A stretch of 64,000 nt of DNA from Bacteroidota bacterium (lineage in GTDB: Bacteria; Bacteroidota; Bacteroidia; Chitinophagales; Chitinophagaceae), in NCBI GenBank assembly GCA_018970395.1, contig JAGWWM010000010.1:1-64000 (forward strand). The letters are read 5' to 3'. The notes beneath the pieces were generated by a model. It was not told where the DNA came from and ran no database searches. It was given only the letters and a program-made list of their open reading frames with translations. The position numbers and the translations under genes were made by a program. Below, piece by piece: positions 50,491-52,008 of the stretch. Every line of letters begins with the position of its first letter. Position 1 is the first letter of the stretch.

Positions 50491-50543
50491 TTGTCTGAAT
50501 CAGGGTTTAAGGATTGTCATCATGCTCGACCGCTTCCACCTTG

Positions 50544-50590
50544 TTTTATCATGATTAAATAAAGTATGGGTTTGTTTTATCATGATAAAA
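50544..50590 (+). promoter_or_regulatory. Paired palindromes in front of the DUF4143 ATPase gene
   Basis: Two copies of the same palindrome: TTTTATCATGATTAAA (50544-50559, imperfect) and TTTTATCATGATAAAA (50575-50590, perfect 16 bp), centres 31 bp apart. The second fills the spacer between a TTTG box and the -7 box of the predicted promoter. Candidate autoregulatory operator. Confidence 0.6.
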
Positions 50591-50601
50591 AGCTACCTTT
50601 A
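50571..50601 (+). promoter_or_regulatory. Promoter of the DUF4143 ATPase gene
   Basis: TTTG (50571-50574), 19-nt spacer, TACCTTTA (50594-50601; last base differs from TAnnTTTG). The gene starts at 50622, about 14 nt after the expected start site. Confidence 0.5.
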
Positions 50602-50621: not shown

Positions 50622-51761
50622 ATGCATTTTCAAAGAAAACAAAAATTTGTTGCCAACGACGGGAACAGCATCTTTTTTTGGGGGCCGAGACAAACAGGAA
50701 AAAGTACACTGCTCAAAGCATTATTTCCGGATGCTTTATGGTTTGATTTACTATTATCCGACGTTTATAATCGGTTAATTACAAACCCCTCCTATTTAAG
50801 GGAGGTCATCCTTGCTCAAAATCCTACAACCGTAGTAATTGATGAAATTCAGCGAATCCCTGTCTTATTAAATGAAATACACTGGCTGATTGTAAACCAC
50901 CAAATTCAATTTATTTTAAGTGGCTCGAGCCCTAGAAAGATCATTCGTTCGGGTGAAAATTTATTAGGGGGAAGGGCTTTACGTTATGAACTTTTCCCGC
51001 TGACAAGTAGTGAAATTTCAGATTTTGATCTGCTGAAAGCACTGAATTACGGGTTATTGCCGAGACATTATTTATCGGCAAAACCTGACAAGATGATTGC
51101 CGCCTATATCGACAGTTATCTTAAAGATGAGATTATTGCGGAAGCTAAAATCAGAAAAGTGGATGTGTTTGCCCGTTTTCTTGAAGCAGCCGCATTCAGC
51201 AATGGGGAAATAGTGAATTATGTCAATATAGCGACCGATTGCGGCGTTTCTGCTACAACGATTAAAGAATATTTTCAGATTCTGGAAGACACCTTGATCG
51301 GAAGATTTATTCCCTCATATCAGCAAAAACCAAAGCGACGTGTCATCAAAACACCCAAATTTTATTTTTTTGATATTGGCATTACGAATCATTTACTAAA
51401 GAGAGGGAAAATTGAATACGGAACAGAATTATTTGGCAATGCTTTTGAGTCATTCATCTTTCAAGAATTAATAGCACATAGTCATTATTCCGGATTACAA
51501 TATCCAATCGCTTACTGGAGAACCGCATCACAAATGGAAGTAGATTTTATACTAGGTCGTCATGAAATCGCAATTGAAGTTAAATCATCCAACAAAATTT
51601 CTACTCGTCATCTTGGTGGATTAAAGGCTTTTATGGATGAATATGAAGTTAAGAAAGCAATCGTCGTATGCACGGAACCATTACCCAGAATTGTTGGAAA
51701 TATTCAAGTATTACCATGGAAAGTCTTCCTGGAAAAATTATGGAATGGTGCGTTTATTTAA
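50622..51761 (+). CDS. AAA_14/DUF4143 ATPase
   Basis: 379 residues, no signal. Walker A FWGPRQTGKSTLLKAL, Walker B TTVVIDEIQRIPVLL, sensor-like FILSGSSPRKI, the ELFPLTSSEIS segment, then the DUF4143 domain (YIDSYLKDEIIAEAKIRKVDVFARFLEAAAFSNGEIVNY) and a C-terminal nuclease-like core QMEVDFIL...HEIAIEVKSS (D...E-x-K). The family is widespread in Bacteroidota and archaea with no proven function; DNA binding and a mobile or defence role have been proposed in general terms only. The promoter carries paired palindromes that suggest autoregulation. Confidence 0.85.
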   Translation: MHFQRKQKFVANDGNSIFFWGPRQTGKSTLLKALFPDALWFDLLLSDVYNRLITNPSYLREVILAQNPTTVVIDEIQRIPVLLNEIHWLIVNHQIQFILSGSSPRKIIRSGENLLGGRALRYELFPLTSSEISDFDLLKALNYGLLPRHYLSAKPDKMIAAYIDSYLKDEIIAEAKIRKVDVFARFLEAAAFSNGEIVNYVNIATDCGVSATTIKEYFQILEDTLIGRFIPSYQQKPKRRVIKTPKFYFFDIGITNHLLKRGKIEYGTELFGNAFESFIFQELIAHSHYSGLQYPIAYWRTASQMEVDFILGRHEIAIEVKSSNKISTRHLGGLKAFMDEYEVKKAIVVCTEPLPRIVGNIQVLPWKVFLEKLWNGAFI

Positions 51762-51821
51762 ACATGAAGGTTTGCTAATTAGCAAATTACATTGCATAAT
51801 AAACAGCATTTCCTGAAAAAC

Positions 51822-51849: not shown

Positions 51850-51864
51850 AAAAAAATATAAATT

Positions 51865-51900
51865 CTCAATATATTGAGTAAATTTGCTCAACATATTGAG
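51865..51900 (+). promoter_or_regulatory. Second pair of palindromes with ATPase-operator geometry
   Basis: CTCAATATATTGAG (51865-51878, perfect) and CTCAACATATTGAG (51887-51900, one mismatched pair), centres 22 bp apart. TTTG (51883-51886) abuts the second copy and TAATTTTA lies 19 bp further (51906-51913), the same arrangement as in front of the ATPase gene but with another palindrome sequence. Confidence 0.5.
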
Positions 51901-51912
51901 TAAGTTAATTTT

Positions 51913-52008
51913 ATGTTTGAAAGGTCTCATTTACAAGAAGTTATTGATCATTCCGAATTAAAATGGCAGGAGTTTTTGCAAATGAATCCGGAGATATTAT
52001 TTGAATGA
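51913..52008 (+). pseudogene. Possible 5' remnant of a second ATPase gene
   Basis: A 31-codon frame, MFERSHLQEVIDHSELK... ending NPEILFE then TGA. The start resembles the N-terminus of AAA_14/DUF4143 ATPases (M-x-x-R followed by amphipathic helix), but no Walker A follows in any frame. It lies directly behind the second palindrome pair. A truncated relic is the best guess; a real short peptide cannot be excluded. Confidence 0.3.

Follow-up and report, generated by a model that had tools for sequence, protein, structure and literature searches.

Promoter repeats of a DUF4143-type ATPase-nuclease gene as a probable cognate tag of the encoded protein

The window (the whole stretch of 64,000 nucleotides analysed here) carries at 50622..51761 on its forward strand a gene for a 379-residue AAA+ / winged-helix / PD-(D/E)XK protein (AAA_14 plus DUF4143; PADLOC PDC-S01), which lies in a chromosome-like contig beside ligA, with housekeeping genes around it. 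An earlier, sequence-only reading of this DNA had assigned an AAA_14 ATPase and a DUF4143 domain to the protein, and both were found on one chain, AAA_14 (PF13173) at 69.9 bits against a cut-off of 27 and DUF4143 (PF13635) at 124.9 bits against a cut-off of 28.1; seven PDC-S01 models of PADLOC also match it, the best with an E-value of 3.5e-59. From the profile match and a predicted structure (mean pLDDT 93.3) the ATPase domain takes up residues 17-132 (50670..51017, + strand). Within DUF4143 the model predicts a winged helix-turn-helix at residues 183-250 (51168..51371, +), with helices at 186-192, 200-207 and 211-223 and strands at 227-230 and 246-249, and helix 211-223 with its N-cap residue 210 is the predicted recognition helix (51249..51290, +). 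Residues 269-374 (51426..51743, +) are assigned by model and alignment to a PD-(D/E)XK-like nuclease fold. The E-x-K nuclease-like C-terminus proposed earlier is present as D-x10-E-x-K and is conserved in the 70 proteins aligned, D308 and E319 being invariant and K321 kept in at least 90%. Pfam matches of Mrr_cat and PDDEXK_3 to this region are weak and below cut-off; the predicted model has the marks of the PD-(D/E)XK superfamily, a mixed sheet flanked by helices that bears D...E-x-K.

Upstream of the gene, a perfect 16-bp palindrome had been described in the 19-bp spacer of a promoter, together with a second copy 31 bp before it. The palindrome, TTTTATCATGATAAAA at 50575-50590, was borne out as perfect and as lying within the spacer of the predicted promoter. 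The upstream copy, TTTTATCATGATTAAA at 50544-50559, does lie exactly 31 bp away but is not a perfect repetition, having one mismatch to the downstream palindrome. The consensus of Bacteroidota promoters is TTTG / TAnnTTTG (-33 / -7), against which we take TTTG at 50571..50574 (+) to be the -33 element and TACCTTTA at 50594..50601 (+) to be the -7 element, the latter departing from TAnnTTTG at its last base; the 19 bp between the two predicted elements are 50575-50593. Both palindromes are the cores of 28-bp sites with the consensus aCTTtgnaTTatCATGatAAtncaAAGt, which we refer to as the tag. Copy 1, ACCTTGTTTTATCATGATTAAATAAAGT, lies at 50538..50565 (+) and copy 2, GGTTTGTTTTATCATGATAAAAAGCTAC, starts 31 bp later at 50569..50596 (+); their scores of 24.1 and 16.0 bits, respectively, come from a site model trained on the same loci. 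The -33-like TTTG is within copy 2 and the -7-like element abuts it. In the window alone the 16-mer with at most three mismatches is not significantly enriched (3 seen against 1.68 expected). Genome-wide (2.4 Mb) the perfect 14-bp core has a single occurrence and the core with at most one mismatch has five, two of which are in the window promoter, 31 bp apart. Neither the best inverted repeat of this promoter (score 16) nor its best direct repeat (score 17) was equalled in any of 200 dinucleotide shuffles.

Ten bases past the stop codon there is another perfect 16-bp palindrome, TTTGCTAATTAGCAAA at 51771-51786, which differs in sequence from the tag and is possibly a terminator. Further downstream, at 51864..51902 (+), lies an orphan, a second tag, TCTCAATATATTGAGTAAATTTGCTCAACATATTGAGTA, that belongs to another DUF4143 subfamily and has no intact gene. 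The best eight of 189 upstream regions matching it all precede DUF4143 genes of one subfamily (L176, L192, L197, L194, L186, L185, L199 and L190). It is followed only by a 31-codon open reading frame (51913-52008) with no clear protein similarity, and orphan tag and reading frame together are probably the relic of a lost paralogue.

A scan of genome contigs retained 80 of 93 relatives, 38-79% identical to the window protein, whose upstream DNA by eye carries the same kind of site. When their upstream regions (-180..+15) were searched in a motif-free manner, the best tandem period was 31 or 32 in 54 of 81, with a mean tandem score of 17.7 as compared to 8.9 in shuffles and 9.0 in the region 400-600 bp upstream; the best periods of the control regions were scattered. 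A palindromic 28-bp model, trained on the same loci that it counts, finds at least one site in 42 of 49 Bacteroidota loci and at least two in 31 of 49, and at least one in 11 of 28 loci from other phyla. By this model there are mostly 2 and up to 3 copies per locus, and of 36 steps between successive sites 28 measure 31 bp. Tags of the ATCATGAT type were seen in orthologues across phyla (Uhrbacteria L077, Omnitrophota L080, Elusimicrobia L084). At four loci (L068, L073, L078, L114) a second AAA_14-like gene is close to the window orthologue; these genes tend to cluster.

In 15 of the 77 scored orthologue loci the palindrome supplies the start codon, as the ATG of TATCATG, and the distance of the site from the gene start has therefore changed while sequence and step were kept. 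Taken by itself, a start codon inside the palindrome might suggest that the repeats act in RNA, as a leader hairpin or a translational operator. We consider this very unlikely. In the window and in many relatives the transcript does not include the repeats, which precede the promoter elements or are embedded in them; from clade to clade the distance between site and start codon changes, with the sequence of the site and its 31-bp step intact; and the link to the recognition helix described below points to a reader of DNA.

The sequence-only reading would have been refuted by a lack of such repeats in front of homologous genes, and we looked for them across the DUF4143 family with a test that presupposes no motif, in which the highest-scoring repeat of each kind, inverted and direct, at -110..+20 is compared with dinucleotide shuffles. 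With 200 shuffles and a threshold of p<=0.01, an inverted or tandem repeat near the start codon exceeds chance in 121 of 189 genes as compared to 15 of 189 intergenic controls taken at these loci, an eightfold excess; the remaining 68 genes have no significant repeat in that interval. A version with 40 shuffles gave 134 of 189 genes and 23 of 200 controls. Controls were predicted open reading frames, 200 of 349 flanking ones for 40 shuffles and 189 intergenic ones for 200. At p<=0.01 the counts by set were 46/77 for orthologues of the window gene (where L073 and L114 stand for neighbouring AAA genes), 3/8 for paralogues in its own genome, 21/24 for family members of about 30% identity and 51/80 for a phylum sample; orthologues from outside Bacteroidota were weaker (9/28 with 200 shuffles at p<=0.01, 14/28 with 40). 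The sample is bacterial and mostly from Bacteroidota, and start codons were predicted and chosen by their distance from the P-loop. In the 40-shuffle set no start was found for L006, L026, L036, L049, L100, L102, L110, L152, L169, L170, L173, L175, L193 and L195; L042, L055, L071 and L160 were removed as having the same N-terminus as another locus, and the upstream DNA of L151 is absent. For L030, L073 and L114 the scores are those of a neighbouring AAA gene in place of the gene for which the locus had been picked.

As a layout, paired palindromes hold for the window and are merely one of several arrangements family-wide. Others are single inverted repeats of 31-43 bp and tandem repeats of 22, 31-34, 36-37 or 40-41 bp, and many subfamilies have a single large palindrome and no array. 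The 86 genes with significant direct repeats have periods of 31-34 (65 genes), 22-23 (9), 40-41 (5) and, more rarely, 36-37 (4), 51 (2) and 19 (1). Copies at most of these spacings, close to a whole number of helical turns, would face the same way. Where an inverted repeat is significant its centre lies at -60..-10 in 76 of 94 genes. The perfect double palindrome had no matches in viral contigs or in 147 family genomes, which is uninformative given that the upstream copy of the window is itself imperfect. Repeat layout seems to be fixed within a DUF4143 subfamily, and distant subfamilies (L174, L200, L205, L211 and other loci of the phylum sample) have periods of 33, 36-37 or 40-41 bp. DUF234 (PF03008), sought as a sister family, is present in 3 of 148 genomes.

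Plasmid iteron initiators and archaeal Orc1/Cdc6 likewise have repeated sites at whole helical turns beside the gene of the binder, and Orc1/Cdc6, like the DUF4143 protein, combines AAA+ with a winged helix. The repeats might be iterons, where an Orc/Rep-like protein assembles or initiates replication, or else relics of a mobile element; autoregulation would then be a by-product. The domain composition, the whole-turn spacing of tandem sites (22, 31-34, 40-41 bp), a patchy distribution and the frequency of members on plasmids (510 plasmid records with a match) all speak for such a reading. We nevertheless hold iterons or mobile-element remains to be quite improbable. The window copy sits in a chromosome-like contig beside ligA, copies per locus are few, many subfamilies have one large palindrome in place of an array, and the flanks hold no conserved replication or transposition partner. 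In contrast to the iteron initiators and Orc1/Cdc6, the DUF4143 protein has a nuclease fold and its loci show no sign of an origin.

If each ATPase recognises its own tag, as the earlier reading had it, tag sequence should co-vary with protein type, and this is what we found: tag similarity tracks protein identity as well as the residues at positions 210 and 212. In an all-against-all comparison of the tag regions of 187 genes, pairs with similar tags make up 2.9% at 20-25% protein identity, 28% at 50-60%, 60% at 60-70% and 90% at 70-80%. The next 113 bp upstream are alike in 0.1-2.2% of pairs in every bin below 80% identity (for instance 0.4% at 20-25% and 2% at 60-70%). Similar proteins in different hosts have tags in common, and paralogues within one genome have similar tags in 6 of 154 pairs, which is at background. 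The window's own 2.4-Mb genome holds ten DUF4143 genes whose promoter repeats differ; one of them (L001) has a 20-bp palindrome at its own gene that recurs nowhere else in the genome with at most three mismatches. On contig C21, at about 16.5-21.8 kb, three DUF4143 genes (L002, L005, L004) are adjacent, each with a different repeat.

These comparisons bear on the possibility that the ATPase gene is under the control of a separate host regulator for which the repeats are the binding sites. WYL- or XRE-type regulators are ordinary for defence genes, and the repeats overlap promoters, as the sites of such a regulator would. Nonetheless, the most widespread protein family among the 477 flanking open reading frames of 73 orthologue loci is present at no more than 4 of them, which makes a co-travelling regulator unlikely; the differing tags of paralogues in the same genome mean that each paralogue would need a regulator of its own; orthologues in different phyla have common tags; and the recognition helix of the gene's own product predicts the tag. 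On balance we give a separate regulator little credence.

Scans along the protein did not single out the winged helix at first. The partial rank correlation with tag similarity has no winner at the level of domains (AAA 0.18, wHTH 0.14, nuclease 0.13), the sliding-window correlation along the protein is flat, and in a column scan of the window's own subfamily the top columns are scattered over the protein with none concentrated in the winged helix. For 887 pairs among 110 proteins of other DUF4143 subfamilies, columns 212 and 210 ranked first and second of 336 in predicting tag similarity once overall identity was removed. Among bootstraps, 97% place column 212 and 75% place column 210 within the top ten, and the value of column 212 was matched in 0 of 200 tag permutations within components. 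In the predicted model these residues form the start, or tip, of the recognition helix. D-x-K-T accompanies GGAAT...ATTCC or GGATT...AATCC, while the window protein has S210 and T212 at the two positions (S210-A-T212) together with a TATCATGATA core.

As the domain-level and window-subfamily scans went against the simple reading, the D210/K212 link was tested on new genes. The rule was fixed as D210 plus K212 going with GGA[AT]T n2-7 A[AT]TCC, which in the first sample describes 20 of 33 carriers as compared to 0 of 154 other genes and 2 of 200 control promoters. The held-out set, collected after the rule was fixed, comprises 129 loci in genomes not sampled before, of which 126 were scored (L233, L329 and L332 had no start). 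Here the rule holds in 23 of 35 carriers and 1 of 91 others; for proteins less than 60% identical to any first-sample protein the counts are 14/23 and 1/76, and for those that are also mutually less than 50% identical 5/7 and 1/38 (Fisher p 1e-4). The held-out and low-identity counts weigh most, given that shared ancestry within subfamilies inflates raw Fisher values. Twelve of the 35 held-out carriers fail the strict rule; a looser GGA...TCC rule, devised post hoc after the held-out genes had been seen, covers 28/33 against 14/154 in the first sample and 31/35 against 5/91 in the held-out set. In the window's subfamily, also post hoc, CTCC...GGA arms occur with 5 of 7 D210+K212 proteins and 3 of 69 others, and none of the seven keeps the CTTT...AAAG arms. 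Other residue pairs gave suggestive words only, and a rule joining K211-N212 to TTCAC/GTGAA was dropped (3/10 carriers against 1/177 others). By such comparisons of sequence, the protein is a partial predictor of its own tag.

These counts also bear on the sceptical position that the repeats are promoter clutter (AT-rich palindromes, terminators) and that the link between tag and protein reflects shared ancestry. Some controls do have repeats, 15 of 189, and raw pair counts are non-independent. Against this stand the excess over intergenic controls, the adjacent 113 bp without such conservation, the survival of the D210/K212 rule in held-out proteins mutually below 50% identity, and the fact that it also holds in subfamilies with different layouts. 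We regard clutter as largely refuted and as very unlikely.

The family-wide repeats, the tracking of identity and residues 210 and 212 together support, on sequence grounds, the proposal of a private sequence tag recognised by each AAA_14/DUF4143 ATPase. That the tag is read by its own protein we think very likely. We further propose that this one-gene ATPase-wHTH-nuclease binds the repeats of its own promoter and is autoregulatory, probably repressing itself, a combined reading that appears likely. The winged helix would bind each palindrome half as part of a dimer, and copies 31 bp apart, about three helical turns, would seat further dimers on the same face of the DNA, so that an assembly of the ATPase could build up. 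With the repeats lying across the -33/-7 region or the start codon, binding would shut the gene off. The protein might be pulled away by phage or plasmid DNA, or by a signal acting through the state of the ATPase; the assembly would then be lost and expression of the ATPase-nuclease would rise. Autorepression as the main effect of tag binding is judged solely by the position of the repeats and seems to us reasonably probable, and activation or an assembly role of the repeats is still conceivable as an alternative to repression.

Beyond serving as operators, the tags might be addresses, and DUF4143 proteins would then make up a large class of one-gene, sequence-addressed ATPase-nucleases. The ATPase would assemble on the phased repeats, and an incoming element with the same tag, be it a sister copy or a plasmid or phage that had picked up the gene, would be silenced or cut, a system of kin exclusion or incompatibility in which recognition helix and target co-evolve as lock and key. 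Were this so, paralogues could share a genome only by virtue of differing tags. We consider this address function unlikely.

Considering known proteins, the best structural match to residues 1-260 of the model is PDB 2qen (Z 13.9, rmsd 3.3, 238 residues aligned), the archaeal Walker ATPase PABY2304 of the STAND / archaeal ATPase family PF01637, followed by plant NLRs, CED-4 and EfAvs5 at Z 11-13. These matches cover the ATPase and winged helix only and, with clamp loaders scoring almost as high (Z 11-12), do not fix the protein's kinship within AAA+. The AbiEi antitoxin / Rv2827c is a winged-helix protein of type IV toxin-antitoxin. This defence-system protein represses its own operon via inverted repeats in the promoter (PMC7319586), and from that account autoregulation via cognate repeats is already known. 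The AbiEi binder is a separate antitoxin, whereas in DUF4143 the same chain is also an ATPase with a nuclease fold and has no conserved partner gene. IniR, a mycobacterial AAA+ transcription regulator, is, as described in PMC5760070, a signal ATPase that binds a promoter, like the proposed DUF4143 protein; unlike it, IniR acts as activator of a different operon, lacks a nuclease fold and carries a MalT-like sensor domain.

PDC-S01 itself is described as the fourth most common defence across prokaryotes and as an ATPase fused to a PD-(D/E)XK fold, a candidate solitary phage-defence protein, with validation pending for most PDCs (PMC12988326). A word search of that paper's main text gave no match to promoter, palindrom, inverted repeat, winged or autoregul, and relative to that text the promoter tag and the recognition-helix link are additions. 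A search of the openly licensed PMC literature, preprints being outside its scope, found no report of DUF4143 promoter repeats, and as far as this literature goes such autoregulation acting as a lock and key throughout a family of one-chain ATPase-nucleases would be new. According to PMC12988326, few candidate defence proteins of bacteria and archaea are as frequent as DUF4143/PDC-S01. The tag adjoining a gene offers a DNA ligand to try for any family member; tags also allow members to be sorted by specificity and decayed copies to be recognised. The question raised is why one effector chain would read its own promoter and also have a nuclease fold.

A hint that DUF4143 genes are inducible comes from Thermus, where TT_P0211 (AAA_14, DUF4143) was up 6.6-fold in a plasmid-bearing, Argonaute-bearing strain (PMC4406477); the table concerned also contains CRISPR-linked genes, so that the induction is not specific. 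The gene at our Thermus pTT27 locus (L214) is probably the same as TT_P0211. No repeat at this locus passes the shuffle test, though TGAATGA-CTA-TCATTCA precedes the start codon. Of the other three plasmid loci read, those of Simkania (L215) and Azotobacter (L217) have strong inverted repeats (0/100 shuffles) and that of Emticicia (L216) a weak one (6/100 shuffles). By eye, TGAATGA-n3-TCATTCA is common to L214 and a Bacteroidota locus (L172), and GGTGGATGAAA / ATCCACC-like tags are likewise seen at three Bacteroidota loci (L134, L143, L144) and on the Azotobacter plasmid (L217).
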